From contig OZ017746.1 of the NCBI GenBank assembly GCA_963969365.1, forward strand, positions 2,542,001 through 2,606,000: DNA of 64,000 nucleotides, in the 5' to 3' direction. Positions 8,301 through 57,055 of this stretch are shown piece after piece. The stretch is from Asterochloris sp. CNOR1 (taxonomy: Eukaryota > Chlorophyta > Trebouxiophyceae > Trebouxiales > Trebouxiaceae). Each line of letters starts with the position of its first letter. Position 1 is the stretch's first letter. Made by a program: the position numbers and the translations under genes. The notes under the pieces were generated by a model. The model made no database searches, was not told where the DNA came from, and was given only the letters and a program-made list of their open reading frames with translations.

Positions 8301-11300
8301 ACTCTTAGGGCGGCCCACTGCTCCAGCGACCTGGTGCAGAAGTATGGTGAGAAGGAGGGCTCTGGCCGTATGCTGCAGCCTGCTTGAATGCCTCTGCAGG
8401 CAGGGTTCCCTGCTCGCCGCAGCAGCAGCATGGTCTGGCCTGCTTAGCCATCTCCGTGAGAGGCGGAGCCGTGCCATGGACGGCTGACCAGGCAGCAATG
8501 AGGGCAAATTTGTTGAAGGGTGAACACAACAATTTTCTGAAGGTCTTAAATAGCGGCACTGCGCAGCCCCTGTGCTCAGCCTCTGTGTGTTGTTGACCTA
8601 CCAGGTTGTCATGGGTGAAGATGAAGGAGATCTGTGCTGACTTGCGCCCTGCGCTGCAGGCTCCATGCAGATGCTGCCCAATGGTGACGTCATCCCCATT
8701 CCCTTGGCTGAGCGCATCCGCGCAGCAGCCAGGGAGAAGGCCAAGGCGGCCATCGCAGCAGCAGCTGCGGCTGCCGCCTCGTCCAGCCCCACAGCCGCCA
8801 GCGATGAGGGCACAGGGCTCAGCTGGAAGCTGGGTGCTGGCATCTATGAGGCTGCGGGAGCCTTTGCAGAGGCTGGCAGCAGGGGCAAGGAGGGGGAGGA
8901 GGTGTCTGGCAGCGCCATGGGCAGTGCCAGTGCGGCAGGGCGCAAGTGGCAGAAGGCATTTTCGATCACTTCCAACCATGCAGGGTGAGCTTCGAAAGCA
9001 GGCGATCACCTGTGGCAGCACTGGGGTGCTGCAGCATCGTTCACCAGCTGGTGTAGGTCCAGGTGAAGTCCACTGCACAGCTTGCTCTCCCTGGCTGTCT
9101 GCAAAATCATTGCAAGTGGCAGCAGGCTGTGTCCATCACTTGCAGCCCTGCAGGGTGAGCACTGGTGCAGTCGGCTGCAGCAGGCCAGACAGCCTGACTG
9201 CAATGCTTGTGCCAGAGTGAGCTGCTGCTGGGACGAGAGCACCTGCAGGTTGACTGCAGCCAACCCCTCAGCTGGCAGTGGCCACAGCTTCGGGTTTGGC
9301 TCACCTGCCCAGAGCTGGCTGCCCTGCTGGCGCCTTGTGCATCAAGGCAGGCAGGCATTGTATATTCATGCGCACTGCCTGCTATGGCTGCAGGACGCCC
9401 AAGTCTCCCTGGCAGCGCCAGTCTGTTGTTGAAGCAACCCAGCTCCCCAAGACGAAGGAGGTGGAGGCGGGTGGCACCTCTGGCAGCGACGGAGACTCAG
9501 GTCAGAGCTCAGGAGCTGCCCTTCAGAAACTGCAAGCAGGTAGTGGGTCCTAAAGTGTCATCCCAGTGTTTGGTCTCAGTCCTGGTCTGTTGTCCCAGTC
9601 AATGGTCTCAGTCCTTGATGTTGTCCGTCCCTGCCTGTCTGAAGGCCCCGAGGACACCCTCCCCCTGTCGCCTGACGAGCACGCCCGACCGCTATCAAGG
9701 GCAAAGAGCTCAGCTGCAGGCAAGCAGTTGCCCCCTCATGTTTGCAACCCTGCACTGTGCTAGATGCCCCACGTCACTCCTGATCAGCATGCTTGCACGG
9801 GCAGAAGGGCTCAGCTGCGGTAGGCCAGCTGTGGTCCGCTGCTGACCTCATGTCTTCCACAGTGTTGATGTTGCTCTGAATTGCCATTCCAGCGCATTTG
9901 GAGCTTGCCATGCTGCACTGCCACCTGCATGCTGGTCAACATGTGTGACAGCCTGGGGGCCAGCATGAGATCTACTCTTGCCCCACCTGATGCCGAGCTG
10001 CTGTGTGCAGGGAGCATGTCCTTCGGGGGCGCATCTACCTGTGCTGAGGCCTGCAACATGCCCACGCTGCAGGGGGAGCCATGATTGGCCTCCTGGCCCA
10101 GGTCAACAGGAAGCTGCGGGGGTCTATCCTCGGAGGCAAGCCCCCCGACGGCTCCAAATGGGGGCACCACAGCGACGCCACCTCTTTGCAGGACTCAGTC
10201 CCTGCTAGCCCAATGCTGGCAGCCGTGTCCAGCAGCAGCAACTCCCCCGGGTTGCATGCTACCTCTCAGCTGAGTGACGACCCTGTGCTGGCGGCGTCCG
10301 TGACTGGGCGGCCACCCCAGCTGCCCAAGTCGGCCAGCTTCATGCAGCGGGCGACTGAGGTGCCAGGCAGCTCCAGGTGCGCAGGAGGTGCCTTGTGTTG
10401 AATGTCGTCATAGAGCACCTCTTTTTTGAGCAATTGTGCAGAGCAATGCTGCCATCGTCAGCAGGACTCCTTCACAGATGGCAGCTTGTGGGGTCCAGGC
10501 CAGGGAAACCACACTACCCCGGGGCTTGCAGGACAACATGGCAGGGCAACACCTCTCTGCCTGTAGCTCCTGACCACTCGCCTGGCACCCCACCTGCAGT
10601 GGCCACTGAGGTGCTCACTGTGCAGATCTTACACTCATCCTGTGCTTGTCTGTCTGCAGCATCAGAACCCAGCTGGCCCTTCACCCTGCAGCTGCTCCCT
10701 GGCTGCAGCCCACGCAGCCTGACAGAGCATGTGCCTGCCTGCAGCTCTGCGCCTGAGCTGATTGCTGCCCTTGCCACACGCATGGAGCTCAAGCAGAGCC
10801 ACCCCTCTCTCGACAGGACGCAAGCCATGCAGATGCCCGCCAGCCTGCTGGGCAATGGGCTGCCCTCCGAGGCGGGCAGCACAGAGCACAGCCCGCTCAG
10901 CGGCAGCGTGACCGACAGCGGGGACCAGGGGGACTCCCCCATGGCACGTCGGCTGCAGCTGCCAGCCATCCGCACGCAGGGGCAGCACCTGCAGACGTTT
11001 GCACAGCCGGGCCCTGTGGCAGAGAGTGCAGAGTCTGAGGATGGGTCTGTGGCCGGCTCAGAGGCTCAGGGAGCAGGTGCGCTGCCTGTCTGGCTGGGTT
11101 GCTAATGGGCCGCATGACTTGCATGCTGAAGCCAGTTGTTGTGGCTTGGAGTCCAGATACAAGGCCTTGTGCTGATGCCTGTTGGGCTTGCCATCATATG
11201 CCTTGCATTGGAGACATGTTCAGCTTGCTGGCCCGGCGTTCATCTGCCTTGTCTGGGTGGCTCTCAGGCATGCTGGGGCAGCCTCCACATGCCTGTGAAA

Positions 11301-14300
11301 AGCCAGATGTCCGCCAGCAGCACCTGCCAAAGCTGCCAGAGCTTGCACCACAGAACGCTGCAGCATGTTCATACCCCAGTGTTGTAGCCCGCACATGCGC
11401 CAGCTGCTCAGGTGCCCAACGCAAATGCACTTCACGCTAGCTGCGCCCCTGCAGAGTCAGGGGGCCACATCATGCCACGCAAGTGGGGCGTGCTGAAGGC
11501 GGCCCGAAAGGTGCTGTGGACAAAAGCCCCTGAGCCCGAGAAGAGCAAGCCTTCGGTGCATTGGGATACTGTGGAGACGCCGTCAACCTCTGCCACAGCC
11601 CAGGGCACAGATTCGGCCATGGTGCGTTCAATCGGCCTGCTGCCCTGCAGCATGTTGCGTGCACGTGGGCTGTCTTTGGCTGCCGGCCCTGAGCTTGCAG
11701 CGTGTGGCCTGCACCTGGGATGTGCAGCAGCTCAGGGATTTGCCTGCGGCTTACTGCGTCTGCAACAGGCGCCCGGCTTCTCTGGCAACCTGCTTAGCGT
11801 GTCAAGCAAGTCTGTGCTTCATTCCACCAGTATGGACTGACTTGAAGGGCTGAGCACCGTGCTGACTTGACTCCGTAGTGCCGCCAGTGCCTCAGGTCAA
11901 ACAGCATGTTGCATGGCCTCACTGCTGCATGCCTTCACATGACAACAGGTGGGCAGACCAGGTGGTTGTATGTCTGTGAGTTGCATTGCAGGGGGTGATG
12001 CGGTCAGGTCCCAGCCTGACCGCTTTGTCCAACCACATTGGCAGCGGGATGAGCTCGGCAGGGGCCTCCCCGCTGGCGCGGCAGGGCAGCAACTTGAAGC
12101 GCGCAATCAGCTTGAAGCGCTCGGAGATGAGGAACGCCACCTCGGGGTCCAACAAGCACACCCTGTCGCTGAAGGTGGGCCAGGGGGCTGCTTGCGTGCT
12201 GACCTCCTTGCACCAAGGGGCCCAGACCGCCTTGCCCGCTCAGCACAGACTCCATGGCAGCACTCTCCTGGGCATACACTGTAGTCCAGCTGCTCTGAGT
12301 TGCCCAGCTGTTCTGCGCTTTCCCTGCTGCAGGCAAGCTTGAGCAGTATTGTGCAGCTGCAGACCTGCACAATGAAATGTTGTGCAGGTCTGCAGCTTTA
12401 GCAGGGCAATGGTTGACTCATTGGCAACATGCACCGCTCTCACCAGTGGGGTCAGCTGGCGGTGCGGCAATGGCTCAGGGAACCCAGACATGCTGAATCC
12501 TGCAGGTGACGGTGGGGTGCGGGGAGGTGTGCGTCTTCCATGCAGGCGGCTACAACGAGTCCTCTAACCAGGAAAACTCCGGAGTGCCCCGCTGGGAGTT
12601 TTTCATTGGCGACCGCCCCCACGCTCCTCCTGTGGACAAGAGCGGGATGCGGCCGCCCATTGAACAGGTCAGTATCTGAGTCCCATGCCTCAGCTGCAGC
12701 AGCGTGTGCTCAGCTTGCCCGTGCCAACTGTGGATGGCCAGCAGCCCAGCTGTGAGAGGTATGACCAGCCAGCAGCTTGTCATGAGCATTCTGCGGGCAC
12801 AGCTTGATCTGACTGGTCTCTCACATGCGGGCTCTCATTTCACAGCAAGTGATGAGCAGACAGCAAGCACAGCTATGCGCTTGATTGGCCCAGCTGCAAC
12901 GCTGCTTCTCTGGTTTGGCAGCTTGCTTCCCCTGACCATCGGCTCAGGCCAGCACTGAGGTGTTTAAAGGTAAGCATGGCACGGCAGACAGAACATCGCC
13001 TGCATTCAGCTGGCGGGCAAACTTGAGTGGCCTGACGCATGCAGATTGCGACAGCGGAGGAGTTTGCCAATGCGGGTGACGTGATCATGAGCCCTGAGGT
13101 TGCACGCACCCTTCTCAACCACTGTGAGGTGGAGCTGCTGGAGCGAGACAACGCCCGCCTCATATCTATGCACACCACCGCAGAGGTGCTCTCCTGTCTG
13201 TTTGCCCTCATGCATGCTCTGCTGCTGTGCAGATGGCTGGCTGCGCCCATGTACACCACTGCAGAGGTGTCTATTTGTGGCCCCTGGATGCTGTGCTGCT
13301 GCGTAGCGGGCTGGCTGTGTCCATGTGCCCCATGCAGACATGGACCACTGTCTGGAGGGCCATGTGTGGGGGCTGCTGTGCAGAGGTGGCCCCCCTAAAC
13401 GGACAAAGCATGCTTGCTGCTCAATAACAGGCAAAATGCTGCCTGTTATGACACCACTGCTGGAAGGAATGGCAGGCACCACACCTTTTCAAGCCACCTG
13501 CTGTTTGCCAGGTCTGACCGTGGGCCCGCTGCCCTGCTGCTGCAGACCCTGTCGGAGGCCGATAGTGCTCTGCGGAGTGCCAAATATGCCACAGACTTTG
13601 CGCAGCTGGCACGGCCGCTCCAGACTCGAGCTGTGCAGATCCTACGCATGCATGTCATGGACAATGTTCGGCAGCGGATTGAGGCAGGGCACCTCGACTT
13701 TGTCAACGAGATCAGGGTGTGCACAGTCCTCTTCCTGGGCTTCCCCAGCTTGAAGGTGGGCACCAGCTGCACCACCAGCTGCTGCATGGCTTGCTGTGGT
13801 GCAGTGCAAGCTCTCATCTGGGGCTTAGACATCCTTGGACTGGTGACCGCGAATTGCCTGCGGTGTGGCTGCCTGTGTGGGCTGCGCCGTCTGCTGCTTC
13901 CTGAATGTCTCCAGCTGTGTAGCCTGGTGCTGTCTGACTGCAAGGCCAGCAGGCCTCCCAGAGTGGCAAAGCCCACAGCCTGTTCATCATTCGTCTACTT
14001 GCGCTGTAGAAGCAGAAGGGGCCGCCTGAGGGGCAGGAGCCTGTTGGGCAGGATGGGGAGCGGGAGGCTGCAGCTGTGCAGGCAGCTGTGGAGCTGGTGC
14101 AGAAACGCATGCGCCAGTTTGATGGCAGCTTCCTGCAATTCAGATGCGATGAGAAGGGGTTCCTGTCCATATGTGCCTTTGGCCTGCCGGGGAAGACGCA
14201 CGAGGATGGGCCTGCCCGTGCCATTCAGGTGACGCCCACACCCTGAAACTTGCTTTCAGGAGGGCTGGGGGTGATGAGCTGCCGCCCTTACAAGGCGGAG

Positions 14301-17300: not shown

Positions 17301-20300
17301 TCTGCCACAGTGGACGCTGCAGCAGCTGACAGCGAGCGTGTCATGACGAGGCACAGCAGCATCTCAGGACGCCCGTCTGCCAGCGCCACAGTCATCCCCT
17401 CTGCCTCTGCGCTGGGCCCCCAGCCCGTGCTGCGCAGCACGCTGAAGCACAAGGTCCCCAACCGCAGCGTGACTCACGAGGCGCTGGGTGGCAAGCAGAC
17501 CAGGGACAACAAGGCCACCCTCCTTCAGGACTTGCTCCTGCAGGTGAGGGTGTGTGCAGTGAAGTGCTGCCTGCCAGGGCTAGTTGCTGAACCTTGGGCA
17601 ACCACCATGGCTGGCCTAATCAGGAGCTGCACTTATCTCATTTCAACAGTTCTGCAGCACGAGCATCTGGCAGTCCTGGAGGTCTCATGACATCTGACCA
17701 GCCTGGCCTATGACTCAGTGGCCTGCCCCCGCCTCCCTGCGCGCAGGTCCTGCGTGAATTTGCGGCTGCATATGGCCCCCTGGTCATCCTGCTGGAGGAC
17801 CTGCATCACATTGACACGGTGTCCTGGGTCTTCCTGGTGCGCGTGACTCAGGAGCTGGACGACTGCACTGCCGTTGTGTGCACCATGCGCCCCAATGATG
17901 GGCTGCTGTCCCTGGCCACGCGCCACCAGCCGGGGAAGGAGGCGCTGTTTGAAAAGGCCACGGAGTGCATCAATGCCCTCAAGGTGGGGCCTCCACCTGG
18001 TCCTGTTTTGAGAGGCACAGTGGTGGACCGGGTCCATTTGGCCCCTGGGCCACTCCAGGTTGTAGCCCAAACGCATCTCCTCGGGCAGGTGACGATGCTC
18101 CAGCACTACAGAGATCTCTGCATATCAAAGCAAACTGAGGGCGTCAGAAGTGTGAGGCAGTCAGCTGCGCGCCACAGGCACCTGCACAAGCTTGTTTCTG
18201 GGCCAGCCAGCTTGATGCTGCGGTTCCTGAGCATGTGACAGCCAGCTAAGAACTCATACCAACCTTGCGCTCCAGCCTAGCCCCCTCCTGCTCCTCCAGG
18301 CGATGCCCAGCCACCTGGGGCCTGTGCCATGATGCTGGGAAGCATGCAGAAGCTGCTCCACCCTGCATGCAGCGCTCAGCCACACGGGCACAGGAGCGCC
18401 CTCCACACAGTCCACAGCTCAGGCCTGCAACCTGTTTATGCGCCCAAAGCCGCCTCCTGCATTTAGCAGCTGCCAAGCTGCTGACCAACCCTGCATTAGC
18501 GCCTGCCCCCCTGCAGGCAACACGCAGCTACATGGGCCTCACGCTGGCGCCCTTCACAGAGGAGGAGACACGGCGCTTTTTGCGGGAGGCGCTGGGCGCG
18601 CATGCAACCCCTGGGGAGCAGCAGGATGCCCTCGTCCAGTTGGTGCATGGCAAGACCAACGGTTTGCCGCTGTACGTGGAGCAGGTGGGTGCTGCCTGGT
18701 GCTGCAGGATTCATCGTGTTCCTCCGGCCTCTCTCTACAAGCAGCTGTGTGCACCCTGCAGCAAGCGATCCCCAAATTTGACAAGGTTTCAGAGGCGCTG
18801 CCAGCTGCAGCAATGCTGGCCAGGCTGACTGGCCAATCTTGCGTCTGCGCAGCAGTCAGGAAGCTTGCACCTTTCCAGCAGAAGGCATCCTCTGGATAGT
18901 CTGTTCACGGCTTGATGCCTGCTGAGCAGCCCGCTGGGCAATGCGGAGTGCTCAACTTTGTTCCTTTGTAGGTGGTTGTGTCCACGCTCCAGCAAGCCCT
19001 GGACACTCCCACCGAGTGCAATGGGCAGCCCTTGCCGGTGGAGGCCACCATGCACAAGCTGATTGAGACGGGGGACAGCTTTGCCAAGAGCGCCGTGACC
19101 ATTCACTCCGTCATAACTGATCGCATAGACAGACTACGGCCCAACCAGCAGCTCACCCTCAAGGTAGACAGCCGCCCCAGTGTGCCAGCAGTACACAGGA
19201 GTTGCACAGCATGCACAGGTCGCTCACTGTTGCATGGTGCCTGCAGCAGAGCCTTGAACAGCCCTGCCTGTGCATGTCTGGTCACAGGAGTGCTGCAGGC
19301 CGGCTGCAGGGCTGCCCTGTCGGGGACTAACGCTGGCACACTAGCTTTTCCCCCTGGGTCCTCTGCCTGGCACGGCAGCCATTGCCAGCGCAGGCCCCTG
19401 CCCCCCCCACCCAGGGCGTGCACTCATGCTGCATGGCTGTGCTCCCTGCCCGCCAGCCGCGGCAATAGGTGGCCAGCATGATGGGTGCTCACCCACCGCT
19501 CCTTGCCTGGGCTTCAATTGCCTTGTGTCGCAGCAGGTGGCCTGCCCGATGAGTGCTGGTCAAGTGGCTCCTTGGTTGACACCTCTGCGCATGCTGCCTG
19601 CCCCCCTGTCCCTGCAGGTGGCCAGCGTGATGGGCACCATCACACTGGAGCTGCTGCACGCCATTCACCCCATCTCCTGCACGCGTGACGTGCTGGAGAA
19701 GGACACCCAGGAGCTGGAGGCAGCCGGCTTCCTTAAACAGGTCAAGGATGCTCCGGGCCAGTGGACCTTTGCCCAGGTGGGAAGGCTGCCATGTCTTGCT
19801 CGCACAGAGCGCCATGCCTTTCCTGGTCTGCACGACTCATCGTGGGCTGCTCGGCAGCATTCAACACAGGCAGAGGGACGTCTTCAACAGCATGCTGCAT
19901 CTGCTGACAAGGCACGGCACCCTCAGCGCCCATCACATCACCCTGCCACTGCCGCAATGCCAGCACCCAGGCACACTCTAGCTGCCCGGCCTCTGCTCCA
20001 CTGCACATATCGCTGCTGGCTGACACCCTCAGATCTTTGGCGTCTGTCCACGCAAGAAGACGCTGCTACACATAGGCAGTGGACCTGCAAGGCTGTGTCA
20101 CATGTGCCCAAAAGTACACTTGCGTGGCCCTGCCCTTATCTGCAGGTGTTGGCCCAGGACGTGGCCAACAGCCTGATCCCCTTCAGCCAGCGCCGCAACC
20201 TGCACTTCAAGCTGGCCGAGGCGCTGGAGGCCTCCCACACCATCCCCCCTGTGCCTGCGGCCATCATCGGGTTCCACTTTGCTGAGTCCTGCAAGCACGT

Positions 20301-22918
20301 GGAGGGGGATGAGTGGCGGCGGGCCATGAAGGCTGTTGAGTACTGGGAGAAGGCTGCGCTGGAAGCCATGGAGGGGATTGACCACCTCCCGGTGAGCAAC
20401 TCTGGGGCCCATGCTGATGGCTTCGAGTCGCTGCGTGGCTTGCTTCAAAGCGCGTGGCACTGGGTGCAGCCAGCTGCCCTTGCAATAACAGGCCGCGCTG
20501 GAACCCATGTACACAGCAAACGGAGGTGCAGGCAGGTGAGGAGGTGCAGGCAGCAGTGTCACAGATGATGAGCAGCTCACTCATGTAGCATGAATCCGAT
20601 GAGCTATCGAGGAGCAGGCTAAGCTGCTGAGTAGGGCTGCTGTCCAACCCCTTTGCATGACTGGCGGTGTCAGTGCCCGGCTGTGGTCGTGCAACTTCCT
20701 GCAGGTAGGTTGCAGCTCTGTCAGGGCAGTCGTTTTTGTGGGGAGGCAGCTCTGTTTGCTGACTGGCAGCCCCACTGCCATGCTGCAGGCCATGCGCTTC
20801 TTCCAGAAGGCTGACGACTTGGCAGACCTGCTGGCAGCCAACCACAAGAAGAACAGCAAGATGTCTGCTCTCATGAAGGCAGCTGATAGTGCCAGCCAGC
20901 AGCCTGGCCTGCGCCGCAGCACGACACAAGGTGCGACCTTGGCCCACTGCATGGCAGCCGCTGCCTCCCCAGGCAGCACCTTAGTTGGCTCACGGCCGCC
21001 TGAAGAGCCTGCCTGGAGGCCTCTAGGCCCGTGCTGCCCGTACGTCTGCATCTAACACCACAGGCTGCTCACCGAGGCAGAATGTGAGTTCGCAAGGGGG
21101 CATCTGCTGCAGGCTGCCGCTGCGGAGGAAGCAGCTCCCTGCATTGCCTGAGCTTCTGTACGGCATGGTGCCACACGCTGTGCTGCCGCATGCTGCATGT
21201 GGAGCTGCCATGGAAGGTGCTGACGCAAGCCAGGGGTTGGTGCCCGAACAGCGCTGCTGCTTCAGCAGGCTGCTGCATACTGGCCTCAGCTTCGCAGGGA
21301 AGGCAGGCACAGTGAGGGGCTGACGCCACAGACTGCCACCAAGCACCGGCCGCCTGGTGCTGCACACCGTCAATGCTGGCTGCAAAGTCCCTGCAGGCAC
21401 GCAATCTGCCGTACACAGGAGGAATGCAATCGGGGGCAGCATTGCATCCAGTCTGATGCTGTTGAGCTCACACCTCAGCACTGGCTGGAGCAATTCCAGA
21501 GTGAGGTGATCATCTGTGGACTGGGAGGGTACCCGGTGAGCCGGCGCCTGTGCCCCTGCAGGCAATCAGGCCATGACAGTGGACGCAGTCCGCCGCGCGC
21601 GGTGGGAGCGCTGCAAGTGCACCATGTGCATGCAGCATGGGGAGCTGGACGCAGGGCGCCGCCACGCACTGGCCTCCCTGCACCACCTGGGGGCGCCCCT
21701 GCCGGCCGAGGACGACCTGACTGAGGGCTGCCTGACCTGCTCCCTGGGGTGCCCCAGCCTGAGCCTGACCTCGCTGCGCACCAGCGGGTGCCTGTGCTGC
21801 GGGGGAGTGGCAGTGGCCCCCCAGAGGCGCCCCCGACCCTCTGGGCAGGCCCACGGCGGGCCGGGGGAGCGGCAGAGCAGCGTGGGCGTGCCCAGCACGC
21901 CTGCCTGGGCAGACAAGACAGGACACTGGTCGCAGGCCAGCCTGGCCAGTCTGGAGAGTACAGGGCGTGACGAGCTGCAGGTGGGGCTGTCGCCTGTTGC
22001 GTTTGGCACTTTGGGCAGCATGGCCATTCTGGATTGGCTGCCAGCTGCCTGCAGTGCTGGACAGAGCAAGCAGCAGATCTTTAGCCGGCGGTGCAGCAGC
22101 GCTGCCCCACTGCATCTCAGCAGCTGCTTGTACTTCGGCTGAGTCTGCTGCAAATTGTGGTGGAGACTGCAGGAGCGCTGCTCTGGGGCCAATCTGCAGC
22201 CAGCTCAACTGTGAGAGGTGTTGGTTTCACTGAACGCTGCACCACACACCCCTCCTTTGCAATCCCCCCTTCGCCCCTTCTCCGAAGGTTGGCTGAGAGG
22301 CGCCATGCTGTTTGCAGGATCATGGTGCTGAGGAGCGCAGCGAGGCGGCGCTTGTCCTCAGCATGCTCATCACCGCCTCCGTGCAGCTCATACCTCCGGA
22401 CCTGATGGCACTGCGCTACGTCAGGAAAACATGCCTATTTTTTGAGGTGAGGCCCTTGAACAACTCAGGTGCTGCGCGGCATTGGGGTTGAGTACAACTT
22501 TCTGCCTGCTTCAAGCTGCACCTGGCTCAAAGGTCCTCATCTTGTGTCGCAGTTTGCTCGTGACTTCGAGACCCCACCTCAAGTTTGGGCTGGGCCTGTG
22601 GTAGGCATCCTCCATGGTGTGCAGCCCTGCTCCATATTCCATGCCATGCTGCACCTGCAGGGGGCGCAAAGGGACTCGCAGATACATGACACCAGCCCCT
22701 TGCATCCAGTAGTAGAACAGTGCAGGGCAGCCCTCAGAGCTCACCAACAGAGCCGCCTCCCCTGGCTTGCTCGGCTGAATCCACAGTCGCGGGCAACCTC
22801 AGCCACCTCAGCTGGTGGGCAGTCCCGCGCATCCTCAGCAGCTTCACAGGGTATGCCCCGCCTAGCGGGTCACACTGTCAACCGAGTCTTCCCTGCGCCG
22901 GCACATGCACGCAGCTGA
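2371..22918 (+). CDS. Soluble-type (ADCY10-like) adenylyl cyclase with C1, C2 and P-loop ATPase domains
   Basis: Class III cyclase making cAMP from ATP, built like animal soluble adenylyl cyclase: two cyclase domains followed by an NTPase module and a long helical C-terminus. Supported exons include 2371-3458 (Ser/Ala-rich then very acidic, e.g. DDDYEDYDDEDDEEEH), 4330-4437, 5827-5939, 6255-6377, 6581-6743, 7024-7308, 7713-7876, 8178-8346, 8660-8984, 9394-9499, about 10077-10376, about 10660-11076, 11452-11622, 11992-12173, 12505-12667, 13045-13185, 13545-13755, about 14010-14228, 14532-14786, 15047-15271, 15483-15662, about 15949-16142, 16500-16794, 17270-17542, 17748-17982, 18518-18682, 18972-19162, 19618-19776, 20145-20391, 20789-20930, 21562-21980, 22318-22446 and 22553-22918. 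Phases agree from 5827 to 8660 and from 20789 to the end. The join from exon 1 (phase 2) to 4330 is out of phase, so at least one exon between 3459 and 4329 is missing from this model. The last exon is placed by phase and an open frame to TGA at 22916 and is the weakest part. Confidence 0.85.
7713..8346 (+). other. Cyclase C1 domain, first half (metal-binding aspartates)
   Basis: Two exons (7713-7876 and 8178-8346). The first reads GAVMIADITGFTKLTEEL, holding the first metal-ion aspartate of class III cyclases; it continues to NNYFTK at the exon end. The second reads VIDLVLAYEGDVMKFAGDS, with the second metal aspartate in FAGD, then DLVQKYG. Both aspartates needed for two-metal catalysis are present, so the C1 half-site should be competent. 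Confidence 0.88.
8660..12173 (+). other. Low-complexity insertion inside cyclase C1 domain
   Basis: Between DLVQKYG (ends 8346) and VTVGCGEVCVFHAGG (starts 12505), which are near neighbours in ordinary soluble cyclases, lie at least six coding exons adding about 500 residues. They are Ala/Ser/Pro/Gln-rich: 8660-8984 contains an Ala run, 9394-9499 is polar, about 10077-10376 is Ser-rich, about 10660-11076 is Ser/Gln/Glu-rich, 11452-11622 contains MPRKWGVLKAARKVLW, and 11992-12173 has basic segments such as LKRAISLKRSEMR. No domain is recognisable; it is probably a disordered loop. The segments remain open at exon length and splice in frame where I could test phase. Confidence 0.65.
8941..9160 (+). 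repeat. Exon-end plus donor duplicated in downstream intron (170 bp spacing)
   Basis: The last about 44 coding bases of the exon ending at 8984 plus its donor (8941-8990) recur at 9111-9160 with substitutions but no length change. Both copies end CCTGCAGGGTGAGC or CATGCAGGGTGAGC, so the second copy keeps a good GT donor. Spacing is exactly 170 bp. Confidence 0.75.
12505..13185 (+). other. Cyclase C1 domain, second half
   Basis: Exon 12505-12667 reads VTVGCGEVCVFHAGG and, further on, RWEFFIGD, matching the glycine-rich strand and the R-x-E-(F/Y) segment after it in ADCY10-like C1 domains. Exon 13045-13185 reads IATAEEFANAGDVIMSPEV, the usual last helix and strand of the domain. Confidence 0.8.
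13168..13337 (+). repeat. 81 bp tandem duplication across a cyclase exon/intron boundary
   Basis: Starting at 13168 the exon tail ATGCACACCACCGCAGAG and donor recur at 13249 as ATGTACACCACTGCAGAG followed by GTGTCT. The downstream TGCTGCTGTGC and GGCTGGCTG segments are repeated too. A third, eroded copy begins near 13323. The 81 bp spacing is a multiple of three and the frame stays open through the second copy. Confidence 0.78.
13545..14786 (+). other. Cyclase C2 domain with transition-state Asn/Arg motif
   Basis: Exon 13545-13755 ends in the first core strand (RVCTVLFLGFPSLK), which lacks the metal aspartate, as expected for a C2 partner domain. Exon about 14010-14228 contains GSFLQFRCDEKGFLSICAFG. 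Exon 14532-14786 contains VTTGQLLCACVGS and EYSVFGDSINLSARLMC, where the N-x-S-A-R spacing supplies the asparagine and arginine that stabilise the transition state. C1 and C2 together therefore form one complete pseudo-heterodimeric active site. Confidence 0.85.
15483..17982 (+). other. P-loop ATPase (AAA_16-like) module of the cyclase
   Basis: Exon 15483-15662 has a Walker A motif, GEAGMGKTRLL, after the strand GGIIMI. Exon 17748-17982 has a Walker B-like strand, LVILLEDLHHID, followed by TAVVCTMRP. The exons between (15949-16142, 16500-16794, 17270-17542) supply helices and Ser-rich linkers. The same module follows the cyclase domains in animal soluble adenylyl cyclase. Linker length between Walker A and B is larger than I would expect because of Ser/Pro-rich stretches. 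Confidence 0.78.
19469..19650 (+). repeat. Three copies of an exon start in the intron before it (cyclase gene)
   Basis: The authentic exon begins at 19618 with GTGGCCAGCGTGATGGGCAC. Related copies, each preceded by AG, start at 19469 (GTGGCCAGCATGATGGGTGC) and 19537 (GTGGCCTGCCCGATGAGTGC). Spacings are 68 and 81 bp. The 19537 copy is in frame with the exon and open up to it. Confidence 0.78.
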
Positions 22919-23235
22919 GGCGCACTGCAGGTGGCAGGGTCTTTCCCCCCCTCTCCCCCCGCACATGATGCCTGGAGGGCTGATGTTGCCCCCTCGCCCT
23001 GCCTATTCTGGCCTCAGCTCAGTACAAGTGCATGTCCAGTTGGGCTGTGCTTCCGTCTGCAATGCCACAAACAGCTGTCTGACCAAATGCATAGTCCTCA
23101 GTGTGAGCTGTCGACATTCTAGCGGCAAACTGGTCTCTCATTGTCTAGTCTAGTGTGTAGCTCAGGAACAATAGCATTGCCTTTTCAGTGTTGCTGGCAC
23201 CATTCCAATGTCAGGAATGGCATATCACAGACACA
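22919..23235. other. Convergent spacer between cyclase and DNAJC3 genes
   Basis: About 320 bp between the proposed cyclase stop and the co-chaperone stop. It should hold both 3' UTRs. No gene, RNA or repeat is visible to me. The segment around 23100-23235 is less GC-rich than the flanking exons. Confidence 0.4.
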
Positions 23236-26200: not shown

Positions 26201-26515
26201 GCTTGACGGCCTGCAGGAAGACATGGAGGGAATTGGTGTGAACAACAGTGCAAGGCAGCAAAACCTCAACTTGCGTGCCTGCGTGAATAGGCCCTGTGCA
26301 ACTGCTGCATCGCCTTGTTTGAGGATGCTGGCGGTGGTGGGGCCAGCCTGGACTGCAGGGACAGGCAGGGATCAGTGAGCAGATTGTGATTGTCACCAAG
26401 GCACTGTGCAAGAACAGGCCATACCTTGGCATGCAATGATCAGCAGCAGCACTGCTAGGATCCAGATGTGTCTGACCAGGTGATCACGGCACGTGCTTGA
26501 GAGCTTTCTCAGCAT
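23236..26515 (-). CDS. ER DnaJ/TPR co-chaperone, DNAJC3/P58IPK-like
   Basis: Hsp40 co-chaperone that in this family stimulates the ER Hsp70 BiP and binds unfolded clients through TPRs. ATG at 26515 opens a hydrophobic leader ([17 protein letters not shown]), a signal peptide or anchor; an in-frame start further upstream at about 26635 is the alternative. TPR exons follow leftward: about 26275-26345 ([14 protein letters not shown]), 26048-26215 ([20 protein letters not shown]), 25810-25945 ([20 protein letters not shown]), 25321-25440, 24960-25090 ([20 protein letters not shown]), 24615-24710, 24260-24470 and 23790-23880. The J domain is split between 23600-23715 ([10 protein letters not shown]) and the last exon, which has the HPD motif in [24 protein letters not shown] and a C-terminal QFNFG before the stop at 23236. 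TPRs before a C-terminal J domain with an N-terminal signal distinguish DNAJC3 from cytosolic DNAJC7. Confidence 0.86.
24812..25000 (-). repeat. Exon-end copies downstream of a DNAJC3 TPR exon
   Basis: On the minus strand the TPR exon ends ATGGCCAAGCGCCACTTTAG then CGAG and donor GTGGGC (about 24958-24990). Related copies lie downstream at about 24880-24915 (ATGGCCAGGCACCACTTTGG) and 24812-24841 (ending CACTTCAGCGAGGTGGGC). The farthest copy keeps the donor; the middle one has lost it. Confidence 0.72.
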
Positions 26516-29273: not shown

Positions 29274-35996
<6,723 letters not shown>

Positions 35997-39200: not shown

Positions 39201-42200
39201 TGCACCCCCAGCGCTGCTGCTCCGCCCGACTCCCCTGCCTCACCCGCTGCGGCGCTGTGGGCAAAGCCAGGCCCCAGGGCCAGCGGGTGCTGGGGCTGAG
39301 CACTGCCAGGCGCTGAGCTGGGGGCATGGCGCAGGCGCACGCCCTGCTGCATCTGCGGAGCATCGGCCGCAAAGGAGATGTTGCGCGCCTGTGCGCGCCT
39401 GCAGGGCGCCAGGACAGGGATTATGCAGCAGCCAGGCTGCAAAGCATGTATTTCATCTGTCTGCCACTGCAGCGGAGCAGTCAAGGGCTCTGCATGGACT
39501 TCATGATGACGCAGACGTATGGCCCCTCAGGTGGCCCCTGCGCATGCCAGGGCAGGCAGATTGAGATGCTGGACCCCGCACCTCCAACACATTGCTGCAC
39601 ATGTGACAGACACATTCAAGCTGCGCAAGCGGGATGCTGGACAGGCACTCTGCCTTGCCAGAAGTATGCCCTGTGACTCGACCCAACTGTGGTTGTCTGA
39701 CATCCTCTGCAAAGCTGTGCTGCTGCAAACTGCAGCATTGTCAGCCCTTTGAAGCCATGGTGTTTGCCTGCAGGCTGCAGTGAAACAGGAGCCCCACCCC
39801 AGCCCAGTGTCACGCTGCAGCCAGCCACAAGACCAGCGCCACACCTGGCGCCGGTCCCAGCCTGTGCTGCTGCAGGGTGGGAGGACAGGCCCCCAGCCTG
39901 TGCAAAGCATCATGCCCCACAGGCTCAGGACCCTTGGGCCCTGCATTGGTGTGCAGCTGCAGGCTGCTGCGGCAAGCGCCCCACCTGCGGCCGGCCCCGT
40001 GCGCTGTGGGCTTGGGGCTGTCCCCCTTTGCGCTGCCCAGCTGCTGGGCCTCCTCAGCCTGGTGCACCAGCTCCCCGCCCAGCATCAGAGGGTGCAGCTG
40101 CAGCGTCTTCGTGCCTGAGCTCTCCAGGGTGGTCAGCGTGCGCTGCAGCTGGACCTTGTCCACCTTCTGCCTGCAGGTCATGTCACAAACTGTGCAGCAG
40201 GTGCAGCCGCAGCGTCCTGCCTCTCTGAGCTCTCCAAGTCAGTCCGCCTTCTGCCTGCAGGACACTAAGCAGCGTGCCGCGGTGCGGCCGCGGGATCTTG
40301 CTGCCTGTTGCTGAGGAGGTGTCCTGCTGCAGCTGTGCCTCTGGCCTGCAGGACAGACAACAGACGGCAGCATAGCACAGCTGTTCGTGTATGCTGGGCC
40401 TGCCTGTCTTTCAGAAGTGCCTGTGCTGGTCAACAGGCTTATGCCCGGCCCAATGCACTCCCTCAGCAGTGAAGAACAACCCTGTGAAGCTGGCCCATGC
40501 AAGAGGCAGTTGCAGTGCCAAAGAGGATGCTGGGTTCAGCAGCTGCCAGTGCTGTGGGCAGGCAAGTGCGTGGCCTCGGCCCCACCGCATGTTGAGCCAG
40601 TGGATGCGGATTGATCCCTCCTCTGCAGAGGTGATCAGCGCGTCCAGAGCAGGGCAGTACAGCGCAGCCAGCACATTCCTCTCATGCAGGGCCTCCTCCT
40701 CCTCCACCCTGCAGCCAGGAATGAGCTGCTGTCATAGGCCTGAGGGTAGCTCGTGGTGGCAGCAGGCTGCTCATGCATATCATGCTTGCATAAAAGTTGT
40801 GCAGAGGCCTCACACAACATGCTGCAGCTAGATATGTGGCCAGCCATCGGACAGTCATGCCCTGTCAGACGCTGCTGCAGCTGCCCTGCTGGTGCAGCCC
40901 TGCTGGTGCAGCCCTGCTGGTGCAGCCCTGCTGGTGCAGCCCTGCTGGTGCAGCCCTGCTGGTGCAGCCCTGCTGGTGCAGCCCTGCTGGTGCAGCCCTG
41001 CTGGTGCAGCCCTGCTGGTGCAGCCCTGCTGGTGCAGCTCTGCAGAGCAGGGCGGCAGCTCTGGGCAGGGCAGGCCGCAGGGCCGCTCCAGCCGCAATGG
41101 GCAGGAGCACATATTCAGAAAGCTGCAGTTGTCATTGCTCACTTATACACCTCCACATTCTGCTCACTGTCCAGGTCCCAGCGCTGCACGTAGCCGTCTG
41201 CGCAGCCCACAAAGATGCAGCACGCATTGGTGGCAGCGCTGTGCACCACTGAAACTGTCTCCAACCTGCATGTTGTACAGAGACTGCAACAGCGCGCCTC
41301 CACAATCTGGTGTCAATTAGGCGCCCACTTGAGCTGCAACGATCATTGACATGCCACTGAAACTGTATCCAATTTGCATGTTGGACAGAGACTGGGACAG
41401 CACGGCTTCACACGCTGATGTCAAGCAGGCGCCCATGTGAGCTGCAACAGTCGTTGACGTGCCAACAGCTGCTGATATATGAAAGCGCAAGGCTCTCAAG
41501 CTGGGAGGATGGAGGTCTTCCATTTCCAGTCAGTGCAAGAAATATATGACGCACATGCTGCAGGCTGAATCACCCAGCTTTTCAACCCCGCGGCCAGATG
41601 GCATGAACCCCTCAAGCACCCAGCAAGCAGGTGCAGGAACCCTCAGGCCACCTAGTAAGCAGTTGGGGGGAGCCCTCAAGCCGCCTAGCAAGCAGCACTC
41701 TCTCTCACCAGGCCGCCCTGGCCTTGAACACGCGGTATGCGGAGGCAGTGCTGTGGCGCCAGACGACCAGGCTGCGGTCGCGAGTGATGGCCACCACAAT
41801 GTCAGAGTCATGCGGGTGCAGCAGTTTGGTCACACGTGTCTCTGCCTGCAGCGTGGACCTGTGCGGCCAGCGGTTGAGGTTCAGAGGACACGGGGAAATT
41901 GGGTTGCTGTACAGACACATGTGAGAATGCTATGCCTGAAGACAGGATGCTCAGGGGATGCATTGAGTGAGGCAGCCATGCTGCCAGCTGGGTGAAGGGA
42001 GGTCTGGGCGATTGCCAGCCACGCACGAGCGCTGCCAGGGCCTGTGCATTGGGCATCCCAGGCTGACTGCCATGAGGACCTGGTGGTGTGCGCCAGCTTC
42101 AACATGCAGACACATTTGGAGAATCAAGAAAAGAAAGTGGACAGACCTGCTGCCTGGCACAAAAGCCGTCACATCTGCAGGCGCTCTGGGGTCATAGACC

Positions 42201-44540
42201 AGCAGGGCGCCATGCTTGCCTGTGCACCAATACTCGCCTGTCAACGGCACCACGCAGCAGGAGGCTGCCTGCATGCATGAAAGGCTTCTGTAAGCCTCAG
42301 AGCAAAGCTCACAGCAGCCCGGGCTGGCCACACTTGCAAGGTGCGCGGAGCGGCCTCTCCAAGTGGATGTTGCTGGCAGTATCCTCAGAGCGGATGTTGC
42401 TGGCAGTATGAGACTGCGGCTAGCTGCAGGGTCCTGCGCTGGATGGCCCGCTCTAGCACCGCCAGGCCTCTTGAGGTTGTGCCAGGCCGATATGGTCTGC
42501 CAGGTCTGCAGGACAAGCACAGACCTGCAAAGTGCCTTGTCATGGCAGGCACCCCGGCACATCAGGTCTGAGATGCTACCCAAGCAGGCCAGGCTGCCAG
42601 GCTCTGTGCAAACAAGTGTGAACCCGTCAGCAAGGTGCCCAGGCCCTTTGCTGACCACCGGTGAGATGCAAGTCAAGGCGTCACTGGAGCTGGCATGCAT
42701 CAGGAGTGAGAGGCCACCAAAGGTGCCCAGGTGCACTGGACCAGCCCCCACCATGTCTAACAACAGTCAGCTCTGTGCTGGTGAGCAGGAGGGACCGCAG
42801 CCGCCTGCGGGACCTGTGTCAGCGAGCCCTGTGCGCACCATGTCCGAGACGCCAGCAAAGGTGTCCAGGCAGCGCCCCTCCTGGCTCCACACACGGAAGC
42901 TGCCGTCCTGCTCCCCTGTGACCAGCCACCCGTTGAGGGTGTCAAACACGGCGCAGGTCAGCCCAGACTTGACGCACTTCTCCAGGCGGCGAACGGACTG
43001 CATGCGGTCTGCCTGCAAGGAGACAGGTCCTCAGGGTCTCTGCGCATCATCTGGCACCCAGCCCGGGGCTGGCCGGCAGGATGCAGTAGCTGTCTGGAAG
43101 TGTGGAGGTCGCCATTCATGGAGGCTCCTGAAAGAAGCGGACCTGATGCAGCGCTGACCTCGTAGATCATGATGCAGCGGTCGTAGCTGACAGTGAAGAT
43201 GAAGCCCTGCTCCGTGCAGACAATGCTGCGAATGATGTCGGTGTTGGCGTGCAGCGGGGCCTGCACAGAGGCACTGAACCTCCTCAGCACAAGCCCTGTG
43301 TTCCAGCATGAGGACCACTCTGCAGCAGATGCAGGGCCCTGGTGCAGGCAAGGCCCCACAGCACTGGCAGGGGCCCCAGTGCAGCATGCTGGTCTGCAAG
43401 GCGTCATGCGCACAAGACTCAAGCCCAGAGAGCACAATGTCACACAACATGAACCGCGATGTGGTCCGGCTGCACTCACCCTGAGGGGCTTCATGGCTAG
43501 CTGCAGCACAGACTGCCCCGGCTCGTTTAACGCCACAGTGGTCACGGTGGCCCTGTCGGCCATGCTGGCCTGAGAGCGGAGCTGCATGCAGGCTCTGGCT
43601 GCGTTGGCGAGGTCCACCTGCACTCACCACAGGGGCGGTGTTGGCAGGCTGCTTCACGGCTTCCTCAGCGCGAACAGAGCCACAACCAGCGACTGCCAGA
43701 CAGACATGCTGTCAGTCCCAGTCCCAGGCCCAGGCCAGCCTTGCGTATGACGACAGATGTCTGCACAGCATGGCCGCCGTTGAGTTGAGGTGGCCCAACT
43801 CTGCATGCTCTTCCTGGGCTGAGTACTGTGGGAAACTGCCCGTTGTGCAGCACATGCACAGGACAGCTGGGCTGCAGTGTGGCAGTTGCCTGCACAGGCA
43901 GATTGGGATGCTGACCTCATACACACGCAGCTCTCCATTGCCACCCGCAATGAGCCACTTCTTGGGGGTACACCAGCCCAGGCAGTGCACCGTGTCATCA
44001 GTGATGATGGTCTGCAAGAGCAGCATAGCTTATTGAGGGAGTCTGGGGATTGAGGACATGCTGTCATGCGGGCCAGATGCCATAAGAAGGCCATGCCTGA
44101 CACAGGCCACAATGGAACACAGCCAAAGAGCTCAGCCTGCACACACATGCTCTGAACTGGCAGGCATGCCCTCTTACCTGCACTTCCTGGCCCAGATCGG
44201 TCCAGGCTTTGATTGTGTGGTCTAGGCTGCACGAGAACAGCAGCCGCGCAGCTGGCACGTACAGGAGGTCTGTGACCCAGCCCTTGTGCCCTGTCAGGCG
44301 CCGCAGCAGCTGCCCTGTCACGGCATCCCAGACCTTGATGACGGACTCCTGGGCGCCGCTGTACAGCTCACCATGAAAGGGGTTGTAGGCCACACACAGC
44401 ACTTGAAACTGCATGTGAGGGTGATGTGAGAGCTGCTTCAGCGGTACGATGCCATGAAACGGGTAAGAGGCCACACACATTATTTGGAACTGCATGTGCA
44501 TGTGGTGCGAGAGCTGCTTCAGCGGCACAATCTCTCCCAT
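36260..44540 (-). CDS. Large WD40-repeat protein
   Basis: Scaffold protein with many WD40 blades, enough for about two beta-propellers; partner and pathway are not recognisable. Blades read leftward: about 44180-44400 (ELYSGAQESVIKVWD; LFSCSLDHTIKAW), 43900-44010 (WLIAGGNGELRVYEV), 43155-43265 (FIFTVSYDRCIMIYEV), 42840-43015 (GWLVTGEQDGSFRVWSQEGR), 41715-41850 (SDIVVAITRDRSLVVWRH), about 41145-41271 (CIFVGCADGYVQRWDLD), 40610-40710 (ALITSAEEGSIRIHWL), 38450-38605 (VLASVSHDRCLRLWDL), 37620-37740 (WLTCSDDDTIRLWDVEG) and 36910-37130 (LYVSGSWDSTLRLW). Between 38.83 and 40.18 kb the frame encodes Gln/His/Ala-rich linker. The last exons read VLAEMDKKLLEDLAARR and end at 36260. ATG at 44540 follows an acceptor-like CAG; an upstream ATG at 44618 is the alternative. 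I treat it as one gene because strand, repeat type and spacing are continuous, but two adjacent genes cannot be excluded. Confidence 0.68.
40091..40264 (-). repeat. WD40-gene exon start duplicated upstream
   Basis: The segment 40091-40182 (GGTGCAGCTGCAGCGTCTTC through CCTTCTGCCTGCAGG) recurs at 40200-40264 with about 25 bp deleted. On the minus strand the lower copy is an exon start (acceptor CTGCAG then a frame encoding TLESSGTKTLQLHPL); the higher-coordinate copy is an eroded exon start lying in the upstream intron with its acceptor intact. Confidence 0.68.
40884..41037. repeat. 14 bp x 11 minisatellite
   Basis: Eleven uninterrupted, identical copies of CCCTGCTGGTGCAG (154 bp). It lies in the WD40-gene intron between the exons ending near 41145 and starting near 40711 on the minus strand. 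All six frames are open across it because the unit has no stop, which creates spurious Cys/Ala-rich open frames. Perfect identity suggests recent expansion, so copy number is likely to vary and may be collapsed or expanded in assembly. Confidence 0.97.
41246..41461 (-). repeat. 108 bp diverged tandem duplication over a WD40 exon start
   Basis: 41246-41353 and 41354-41461 align end to end (CCACTGAAACTGTCTCCAAC against CCACTGAAACTGTATCCAAT, then CAGAGACTG, AGGCGCCCA and GAGCTGCAAC in both). The lower copy contains the start of the exon encoding CIFVGCADGYVQRWDL and its acceptor (minus strand CATGCAG). In the upper copy the acceptor has mutated to CATGCAAAT. Confidence 0.8.
41614..41697. repeat. 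Three imperfect copies of a CCCTCA...AGCAAGCAG motif
   Basis: CCCTCAAGCACCCAGCAAGC, CCCTCAGGCCACCTAGTAAG and CCCTCAAGCCGCCTAGCAAG recur at intervals of about 30 bp within an intron of the WD40 gene. Short and of no evident function. Confidence 0.6.
44372..44533 (-). repeat. 81 bp in-frame tandem duplication in WD40 gene
   Basis: Two copies 81 bp apart on the minus strand encode MQFQIMCVASYPFHG then IVPLKQLSHHPH, and MQFQVLCVAYNPFHG, each preceded by VPLKQLSHH. The 27-residue unit is the start of the first WD40 blade (the strand VLCVAYNPFHGELYSG). The frame stays open, so either the protein has an extra partial blade or one copy is spliced out. Confidence 0.82.
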
Positions 44541-54200: not shown

Positions 54201-57055
54201 CGAGCTGCACCAGCCGGCATCTACGTCGCCCGCACCAGGCCAGCATCCTGCCAGACTGCTTGAGTAGCATCTGCTGAATGACCCTCATCAGCCCGCCCTT
54301 GACCACCGACAGCAATCCACATCCTCTGCCAAGATGAGAGCAGATTGCTGGGCCCAAACCCTCATGGTGGGCCCCTCTGCAGGTGAAGGGCGTGCCCCCT
54401 GCAGTTGTGTCCGAGCAGCTGAATGAGCTCCTGGCAACGGCCGCTCCCTTCCAGCATGCCCACCAGGGGGCAGCCCTGGCCCGCATCTCCGACGCGGTGC
54501 AGGCAGCCTTCCAGGGGGGCACCCGCCCGCTGCCCACAGCTGCAGAGCTGCAGAAGTGCATCGCGTGAGTATCTGCCTGGCGCAGCCCTGGGTTGTGTGC
54601 GTGGGCGCTGCTGCCAACGGACAAAGCAACGCTGTACTGGGTGGTGTGCAGGGGTTTTGGCTATGGCATCTGGACGCATTCAGCTGCAAGTGATCACTGC
54701 ATCTCCAGGCCCACTGAAGCACACCGACCATCCTGTGTTGCGCATGACTGCCCTGCAGCTTGACAGCTGCTCAGTCACGCGGACATGGTGCCTGCAGGCG
54801 CCTGCATGATGAGCTGAAGGCTGCAGGGGACAGCCCCCGCCTGGCCGCCCTGACTGCCAGGAGCGTGGGCAAGGCGCTGCAGCTGATGGCTGAGAAGGCC
54901 GAGTACATGGCTGCCACAGGTGGGGGAATGCATGCACTATCTGGCTGCTTCTGAAAACAGTCAATGTCAGCCGCTGAGAAGGCAGACCGCATGGCTGCCA
55001 CAGCTGGGGTGTGTGCAGCAGGTCCTTGAGGCAGCGCCTGATTCTCAGGCTGCCGAAACAGCAAAGGGGTCCATACGAGTTGCTGCTGCTTGCTCATGTG
55101 CCCCTCACGGACCAAAGGAATCGGTTGCCTGAGGCTGCCTCCTGCGTGGGTGCTGATGTGTGTGGCAGCAGCTGAGGGGTGCTGCTCTGCATTGTTGTGC
55201 GTGGTCCAGGTGCAAAGCTCCTGTCGTCTGGCTGCAGGGCCTGAGGTGCGCAGCATAACAGGGCCCTGCACCAGCGCCCAGCTGCGCAACATTGCCCTGA
55301 GCTCTGCCCTCCAGGAGGTGCATCGCTCCCTGGCCACGCTGCTGCCTCGGATGCCGCCCGCAGCCGCCGCAGTGCTTACGTGAGTCGCCCTGCTGCACTG
55401 TGCCTGGACTCTTGCCTATGCAAGAGTGTGCACGGTGGGCAGTGCAGATTGTAGCTTCTCCCCAGCAATGCCGAGCTGTGAACAGCGGCCCTTGGGCATG
55501 TGGGGCTGCTCCATGTCTGTGCAGCTCAGCTGTGCTGCATGCTGTTGAAGAGCTTGCAGCTGCGTCAAACAGACGATGTCGACCCTGACCATGCCGCCCC
55601 CACCGAGCGCTGCTGGCTTCTGTTTGCTCAGTGTCTGTTGATGCGGTGCAGGAGGAGTGGCGTAAATGTCATCCGCCTGCTGTCGTGGCCCACACTCTCA
55701 GGGAGCCTGCAGCTCAGGTGTGACAGGAATCTGAGCCTCCAGTGCAACACCCCTGCAGGGCGCCACTGGATGCCATCCGCACTGTGGCCATTGAGGCGGT
55801 GCTGCCCCTGTTCAAGGCCATGGTGGAGGCGGCTGAGCAGCACCTGCTGCGAATGCATGGGGAGGGCCTGGGGCAGGAGGGGCCGGGGGAGCTGCACACC
55901 TCTGGCTACATGCGAGACCTCACCCACCACCTGAGCCACTGCAGGTAGGCAGGCTGGTGGTGCTGGATCAGGCCTGTGCATGCAGAGCATGGAGGGCTGG
56001 CACACAGCAAGGCCTCCACGGCTGCGCAAGCGCAGTCATATGGCATATCAGGCAGAGTCTTGTCGGGTGGCCTGGGGTTTGCCATCTTTCGTTGGCCACC
56101 ACGTGCTGATGCACTTCAGATGTGGACCGCTTCTGCTATGACTGCTGAACTTGCAGAGAGCAGCAGCTTGAATGACAGCCGCTGTACTAACAGCCCGTGC
56201 TGCTGTTGCAGGCTGGAGTACCTGTCAAAGTTCATGCCAGCCCCCTCGCCGCACGTCCACTCCTTTGCAGCTGCCCTCGTGCAGCGCATGGCCTCCCGCG
56301 TCCTCATCTTCTTTGTGCGGCACGCCTCCCTGCTGAGGCCGCTGTCAGATACCGGCAGACTCCAGCTCGCCAAGGTGGGCTGCCTGCACAGCTATCTCTG
56401 CCTGTTTTACTGCAGATAGCAAGCACACAGACTTGACACATCTCCTGTGAAGTCAAGCTTGTTCGTTGTGCACCCCCCTTCTGCCCTGATAGACACAGCT
56501 GACATGTTCAGGATATGGCCGATCTGGAGGCGGCAGTTGGCCAGAGTCTGGTTCCCCTTGAGCACATCGGCACCCCATTCAGGATGCTGCGGGCCTTCCG
56601 GCCTCTGCTGTTTCTGGACACAGCAGCAATTCTAGACAGCCCGCTTGTTCAGGTCAGGCGTGTATGCTCACTTTACGAGCCTGTAGTTTGCTGTACTTTG
56701 ATCAAGCTGCTGTTCCTCCTGGAGCATGAGGGCCCACAGGCTGCTACGCTCCACCACTTGACTGCAAGTTGCTGCTGTCTCCGGCACATGCGTCTCTCCA
56801 CTGCTGCAGGCCTTGCCACCAAGCATTGTTCTGCACCATCTGTACAGCCGGGCTCCCCAGTCTTTGCAGTCACCACACACCAGGAGCGGATTCACTGCAG
56901 CTCAGTACTCCCTGTGGCTGGATCAGCACACTAGTGAAGATGTGCTGAGGTTCATCCGCAGCGCCCTGACTGCCTGCCAAACGAAGGCAGAGCATGAACC
57001 TGGGTTCGATGAAGTCTTTCCTGTGATGATGAAGCTGTGCAAGGCAGCCTCTTGA
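51206..57055 (+). CDS. COG5: Conserved oligomeric Golgi complex subunit 5
   Basis: Lobe B subunit of the COG tether for retrograde vesicles at the Golgi. ATG at 51206; the first exon encodes FLDASFNATEFASAAL, matching the COG5 start. Exon 51549-about 51807 encodes SIRRLNSILRGEVSSKQHEL, LVGHL-type heptads and EPYLRLRRDAVKLHNLQ, the conserved N-terminal coiled coil. Later exons: 52118-52316, 52572-52660, 52823-52996 (VVGTVERASSQFARAVKDAL), 53208-53382 (WQRLGKIFEQLHLSAVTVW), 54031-54179, 54384-54565, 54800-54919, 55238-55379, 55759-55945, 56215-56372 (YLSKFMPAPSPHVHSFAAAL), 56513-56652 (DLEAAVGQSLVPLEHIG) and 56810-57055 (LYSRAPQSLQSPHTRSGFTA, a diagnostic C-terminal block). The frame stops at TGA 57053-57055. 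The series matches COG5 from end to end, so it looks complete. Confidence 0.93.
53383..54030 (+). other. Long COG5 intron
   Basis: About 650 bp between the exon that ends near 53382 and the exon that begins DVMVKVLESAM at about 54031. Open frames cross it (for example about 53500-53770), but none fits COG5. A short exon could be hidden here because the COG5 middle region is poorly conserved. Confidence 0.45.
54889..55016 (+). repeat. 84 bp tandem copy of a COG5 exon end
   Basis: The exon tail GCTGAGAAGGCCGAGTACAT and GGCTGCCACAG followed by GTGGGG (from 54889) recurs 84 bp downstream at 54973 as GCTGAGAAGGCAGACCGCAT and GGCTGCCACAG followed by CTGGGG. In the copy the donor GT has become CT, so it cannot act as a donor. 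Confidence 0.82.

Follow-up and report, generated by a model that had tools for sequence, protein, structure and literature searches.

Recurrent copies of exon edges in the adjoining introns of Asterochloris genes

The window, that is the whole stretch of 64,000 nucleotides that was analysed (C1:2542001-2606000), is nuclear DNA from an Asterochloris genome of 56.38 Mb in 21 contigs. It carries a cyclase gene, a DNAJC3-like gene, a coiled-coil gene and genes for VPS34, a WD40 protein and COG5. Gene models were made with a self-trained two-strand hidden Markov gene finder on 314 kb, consisting of the window and 250 kb taken elsewhere in the genome; this sample served for training and for analysis. 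The gene finder placed 751 exons (mean 133 bp) and 687 introns (mean 275 bp) in the 314 kb, and the splice consensus learned by the model was CAG/GTGAGC for donors and CTGCAG/G for acceptors. Exons were predicted on both sides of 678 introns, and 338 of these lay within the length limits of the edge-recurrence test described below. Pfam recovers PI3K, WD40 and COG5 domains in the predicted window genes. The WD40 protein was 99% identical, over the aligned part, to the JGI model P0040 labelled Astpho2, which we take to be Asterochloris glomerata; P0040 is a gene prediction itself, independent of the present model. For COG5 the next best named relatives were Trebouxia and Coccomyxa. The COG5 protein P0001 has 807 residues and lies on a 2768-base contig, so it presumably derives from spliced RNA. 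The published A. glomerata genome fits this identification: it comprises 56 Mb with a GC content of 56-62% over 98% of the sequence, and has 9 introns per gene, a mean gene length of 4240 and a mean mRNA length of 1400 bases (PMC6652019).

An earlier note on this DNA had reported ten tandem duplications that straddle splice junctions. These cases came without coordinates and were matched by inference to the repeats found here (Table 1). On this matching, an exon edge is involved in nine of the ten, the exception being the coiled-coil case, which is wholly intronic.

Table 1. Repeats and related features, with positions in the window unless another stretch is named
Gene or stretch	Feature and position	Copy	Strand	Identity	Remarks
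Cyclase	exon end 8942-8984 and donor; copied part 8942-8990	9112-9160, downstream intron	+	41/49	offset 170; model exon 8660-8984
Cyclase	exon end and donor, 13168-13265	13249-13338	+	72/90	offset 74-81; probable true donor after 13188
Cyclase	acceptor and exon start, 19592-19634	19440-19485, upstream	+	36/43	
DNAJC3-like	donor edge 24944-24974	24804-24833, intronic	-	28/30	gene name from the earlier note
DNAJC3-like	second donor edge 25808-25831	25726-25749, intronic	-	21/24	weak
Coiled-coil gene	tandem duplication, 2 x 94 bp, 27855-28047		+	95/99	entirely within intron 27787-28513 in the model
VPS34	acceptor and exon start 32326 (32318-32376)	32214-32272	+	46/59	Pfam PI3K domains
WD40 gene	acceptor edge 40158-40180	40242-40264	-	21/23	
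WD40 gene	108-bp head-to-tail unit over acceptor, 41246-41356	41354-41464	-	91/111	first exon base 41265
WD40 gene	exon end 42846-42869	42708-42731	-	21/24	weak
WD40 gene	81-bp head-to-tail unit over acceptor, 44371-44450	44452-44531	-	65/80	first exon base 44408
COG5	exon end 54889-54919 and donor (54889-54925)	54973-55009	+	32/37	GT changed to CT in the copy
	61-bp tandem duplication, 62088-62213		-	61/65	94%; edge status doubtful, depends on a 28-bp predicted exon
WD40 gene, intron	minisatellite, 40872-41043				14-base unit, about 12 copies, 97% alike
Cyclase, intron	perfect 18-base inverted repeat, 12355-12397				7-base loop
L016 and L017 joined (C6:500001-520000)	inverted duplication, 4706-8264	8793-12347			3.56-kb arms, 99.8% identical
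L002-L005 joined (C1:2500001-2540000)	array of a 151-bp unit, ~19283-20308				copies ~93% alike; unit modelled as 48-bp exon and 103-bp intron
L002-L005 joined	more arrays, between 20960 and 27923				mostly modelled as coding

Five of the window cases could be checked against proteins, namely COG5, two WD40 acceptors and two cyclase edges, and the outer splice site fits in all of them. In COG5, protein P0001 reads through the junction 54919/55238. The peptide encoded there by the exon is AEKAEYMAAT, and the copy reads AEKADRMAAT; in an alignment of four proteins, our own model among them, the exon residues at the two differing places (E and Y, with D and R in the copy) do not vary. P0040 has the same exon start as our model in the 41246 case of the WD40 gene (41265), where the similarity spans the entire unit. 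In the 44371 case the model misplaces the gene start; the upstream exon is supplied by P0040, which agrees on the acceptor 44408. Where our model inserts 26 residues (13189-13266), the alignments with the Trebouxia cyclases P0129 and P0128 show gaps of 28 and 29 residues, which points to the outer donor, after 13188. At the third cyclase edge the residues LTLKVASVMG across the junction are identical in Trebouxia P0129. Sliding of splice sites, one of the processes suggested in the earlier note, is not shown by these cases.

The recurrence of exon edges was tested against chance. The 40 bp of exon sequence at each edge were searched for in the adjoining intron, with introns of similar length from other stretches as control. 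The arrays of the joined stretch L002_5 and one arm of the inverted duplication in L016_17 were left out of this test on 338 introns. The exon end was found again in the downstream intron in 21/338 cases against 0.50 expected, and the exon start in the upstream intron in 16/338 against 0.56. Thus about 5% of exon edges (37/676, with about 1 expected) carry a recognisable copy in the adjoining intron. The window contributes six recurrences of exon ends and three of exon starts among its 93 introns in this set. The predicted introns of the inverted duplication lie in mirror order, and it may be a young palindrome or an assembly artefact.

As controls, the far edges of the same exons were compared with these introns and gave 0/238 against 0.45 expected and 4/239 against 0.29. 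The latter value, for far exon ends at score 26, is a small unexplained excess and falls to 0 at score 30. Windows from the intron interior recurred in their own intron in 7, 9 and 5 of 298 cases, against 0.77, 0.71 and 1.11 expected. Local duplication is therefore general, and exon edges are affected two to three times as often as intron interiors, so that the enrichment at junctions for which the earlier note had asked is present. The pattern is real and sample-wide, and the window is not special: it holds 9 edge events, or 0.14/kb, and the remaining sample 45 events, or 0.187/kb. In five dinucleotide-shuffled versions of the window no repeat reached the threshold at which the window itself yields 22 rows, 9 of them from a single minisatellite. 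The far-edge and far-intron controls speak against local composition as a cause.

It could be argued that the pattern is produced by faulty gene prediction or by the splice consensus that all edges share. The self-trained models are indeed wrong in places: they contain micro-exons, the start of the WD40 gene is misplaced, and one cyclase exon overruns its probable true donor (to 13266). On the other hand, the non-cognate introns control for the consensus, the probes consisted of exon sequence alone, and the checked junctions are supported by P0001, P0040 and P0128/P0129. We regard an artefact of this kind as extremely improbable.

The position of the copies was evaluated next to their source edges. 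At a score of at least 26, copies of exon ends lay in the first 100 bp of the intron in 11/20 cases and in the opposite 100 bp in none; copies of exon starts lay in the last 100 bp in 9/16 cases and in the opposite 100 bp in one. Forty-five edge copies were traced by banded alignment, after free local alignment had been dropped because it matched each intron to itself. Both arms of the L016_17 inverted duplication were kept in this tracing, in the position counts at score 26 and in the classification of events given below. Several of the best preserved are complete head-to-tail units, with an aligned length close to the offset, for instance at 41246 (111 bp aligned, offset 108) and 44371 (80 and 81) and at position 6918 of stretch L018_19 (121 and 119). 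We inspected eight well-preserved cases, hand-picked, six of them at an edge or possibly so and two intronic. Similarity covered the entire head-to-tail unit, of 61-119 bp, in five of them and was partial or gapped in the other three. Offsets reach up to 300 and so go beyond the units of these eight cases; two more strong matches have offsets of 193 and 226. Many copies are not adjacent, as the offset far exceeds the aligned length. An aligned length close to the offset, the mark of local tandem duplication, is found in the best preserved cases and is not demonstrable for the decayed majority. The ungapped similarity beyond the aligned part does not separate tandem from spaced copying, and the simulation described below gave similar values.

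The earlier note had connected these repeats with the gain of new introns. If an AGGT-bearing part of an exon is duplicated in tandem to give an intron, the far end of that intron should repeat the upstream exon end, and its beginning should repeat the start of the next exon. In introns of at least 150 bp, a copy of the upstream exon end in the last 60 bp was found in 0/298 cases, and a copy of the downstream exon start at the 5' end in 0/298. Among the 416 introns of at least 65 bp, the comparison of exon end with intron end gave one match at a score of at least 26 (0 expected), and that of intron start with next exon start gave 0/416 at a score of at least 24. One short intron in L018_19 (102 bp, offset 97) comes near the expected geometry. 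At the lenient score of 20, intron start matched next exon start in 8/416 cases against 2.4 expected, and with tandem arrays kept, donor and acceptor regions (80 bp each) matched in 11/416 cases against 0.7 at score 26. Two possible components of this donor-acceptor excess gave nothing once the arrays were taken out, with 0/338 for exon ends compared with the start of the next exon and 0/298 for intron starts compared with intron ends. A duplicated unit confined to the exon, as an AGGT unit would be, is ruled out by offsets that exceed the exon length in 18/44 cases, as in random pairing. Moreover, 16/22 copies that cross the edge still carry the GT or AG, which argues that the intron was already present when the duplication occurred. 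Intron gain by this model, named after Rogers, is hence very improbable as the source of the copies. What does hold is the lengthening of introns, in that the duplicated unit adds its own length to an existing intron.

Similar introns dispersed over the sample, as introner-like elements would leave them, were searched among the 678 introns, and 32 similar pairs of 229503 were found. Among 20 inspected pairs, 8 lay in the one inverted duplication and 12 in the L002_5 arrays.

The state of the copies was analysed in the traced alignments. The offsets fall into the three classes modulo 3 with 16, 12 and 16 cases, giving no frame preference, and mismatches amount to 18, 16 and 21% at the three codon positions, slightly higher at the third. 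This evenness and the absence of a frame bias show that the copy is little constrained as coding sequence. In 22/26 aligned pairs the real splice site scores above its copy, with two ties and two reversals. The comparison is biased, because the gene model favours strong sites and the register may be shifted by gaps. The alignment extends at least 6 bases into the intron for 7/27 donors and 11/18 acceptors, as expected if the splice signal alone is conserved there. Taken with the residue changes in COG5, the weaker inner sites and the little coding constraint suggest that the inner copies most likely drift as intron. Alternatively, the copies might be functional alternative splice sites or exons under selection. 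The inner site equals or beats the used one at the 11032 acceptor of L018_19 and at the 17487 donor of L008_9, and is nearly as strong at L018_19 4822 and L008_9 7157. Against this stand the little bias between codon positions, the lack of frame bias and, with the reservation just made, the weaker inner sites, and we consider selection for function very improbable. The description of the copies as active intermediate states is likewise doubtful, since most copies look old.

We asked how far the preference for edges follows from random duplication. From 101 clusters of matches, 74 were retained after dropping offsets below 50 bp, clusters with more than three overlapping matches and the L002_5 arrays (19000-28200). 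They comprise 54 edge, 8 intron-only, 8 exon-only and 4 other events, where the true edge case 44371 is counted as other and the doubtful case 62088 as edge. Unit lengths in the simulation were drawn from the observed edge offsets, so that it is partly circular; an exon constraint of 0.25 and an indel rate of 0.12 were assumed, and variants with a constraint of 0.1 and an indel rate of 0.5 were tried. When duplications were placed at random and those changing the mRNA rejected, an edge was straddled in about half (1603/3000, youngest bin). As both exons and introns are short, a large share of harmless duplications covers an exon edge. However, a constant rate with conserved exons and drifting introns gave a ratio of edge to intron-only events of 1.25:1, in contrast to the observed 54:8. 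The excess was largest at scores of 36-60 (42:5 against 0.97:1) and was seen at scores of at least 60 (12:3 against 1.34:1) and at least 100 (5:1 against 1.43:1). Likewise, the two- to threefold preference of 40-bp windows at edges over interiors compares with 1.04-1.15 in the simulation.

In contrast, among simulated old events (bins from 0.3 up) those at edges outnumbered the intron-only ones by at least 20 to 1. At such ages intron-only pairs would have faded, leaving weak and short matches anchored in the exon. At ages of 0.3-0.4 neutral substitutions per site the simulated score percentiles were about 29, 42-48 and 72-83 and 27, 35 and 50-62, compared with 29, 39.5 and 65 observed, and the percentiles of the intron part resembled the observed 0, 2.5 and 10.5. 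The aligned exon part had a median of 31 against 35-48 simulated at these ages. Exon windows placed 0, 20, 40, 60 and 80 bp from the edge gave 44, 20, 9, 8 and 3 matches, again with one arm of the L016_17 inverted duplication left out. With the observed offsets the simulated decay was about 1, 0.8, 0.6, 0.4 and 0.25, so that the observed one is steeper at each age tried; a fixed 80-bp unit decayed faster in the simulation (1, 0.69, 0.31, 0.01). Units that were originally shorter than the present offsets, with later growth or added copies between, would explain part of this steep decay. It would equally follow if long exonic copies were selected against or if duplication were biased towards edges. 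Additional copies of an edge within one intron were found in 4/43 cases against 0.23 expected at a score of at least 26, and in 10/43 against 3.1 at a score of at least 20. An age great enough to explain the edge excess leaves too few young events for a constant rate and requires that duplication was once more frequent. The alternatives are mostly old events or a preference for exon edges.

The second of these options would make edges true hot spots, where the ends of duplications fall by preference close to exon-intron boundaries, through breaks or template switching linked to transcription or to microhomology of the splice motifs, or where duplications are preferentially kept. The ratio of 54:8, the short copied exon part anchored at the edge and the further copies of the same edge speak for this. 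The strong matches, small in number, deviate less (12:3 and 5:1), old age with exon conservation alone produces the high ratios in the simulation, and the 19 clusters with offsets below 50 bp contain 11 intron-only and 4 exon-only events, 3 that touch the exon by at most 6 bases and one at an edge. We therefore hold hot spots to be possible but rather unlikely. If they were real, introns would grow one-way by repeated uptake of their own flanking edges, a process separate from transposons and from intron gain.

We favour the reading that ordinary short head-to-tail duplications occurred in genes dense in introns and that exon conservation has filtered what can still be seen of them; we give it a probability of roughly 60%. 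Such duplications, perhaps made by slippage or template switching, would hit genes with short exons and introns. The outer splice site would stay in use in most cases, as fits the protein-checked ones, while the inner copy, splice site included, would turn into intron and drift, probably neutrally. The intron would lengthen by about one unit. Selection would hold the exonic copy, and since edge pairs would remain recognisable longer on this account, they would outlast the faded intron-only duplications and edges would look favoured. Exon-edge repeats alone are thus not evidence of intron gain, because exon conservation can preserve them selectively. The edge copies could serve as a record of how introns lengthened, one that could perhaps be dated, and as a natural experiment in the choice of the spliceosome between duplicated sites.

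The pattern shares features with several known systems. As in intron gain of the Rogers type, exon sequence is duplicated locally in tandem together with AG and GT signals; here, however, an existing intron is lengthened, the copy derives from the adjoining edge and does not lie at the other end of the intron, and the 314-kb sample showed no clear case of a new intron. In the RdRp gene of potato, a tandem duplication copied an upstream intron-exon structure, and a cryptic donor gave rise to a new intron and an exonic insert (PMC4974935). The unit includes an existing intron-exon edge in both systems, but the copy in the alga is apparently just spliced out. Novel intron positions in Drosophila have been attributed to sliding or tandem duplication, and duplicated splice sites compete after regional tandem duplication there as they may here; the position of the intron changes in the flies as described, and no such change is shown in the alga (PMC2891723). 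Introner elements also affect many introns genome-wide, whereas no dispersed intron family was found in the present sample and the repeats are private to each intron (PMC9860276). Among titles and abstract openings of a mainly open-access literature we found no description of dense exon-edge duplication in an alga, and the word 'tandem' occurs 0 times in the main text of the Asterochloris genome paper (PMC6652019).

Repeats with offsets below 50 bp formed a group of their own in the 314 kb. They were mostly intron-only (11/19 clusters), and several were 90-100% alike. Given this similarity they look younger than the edge copies, and they may result from a different mechanism.
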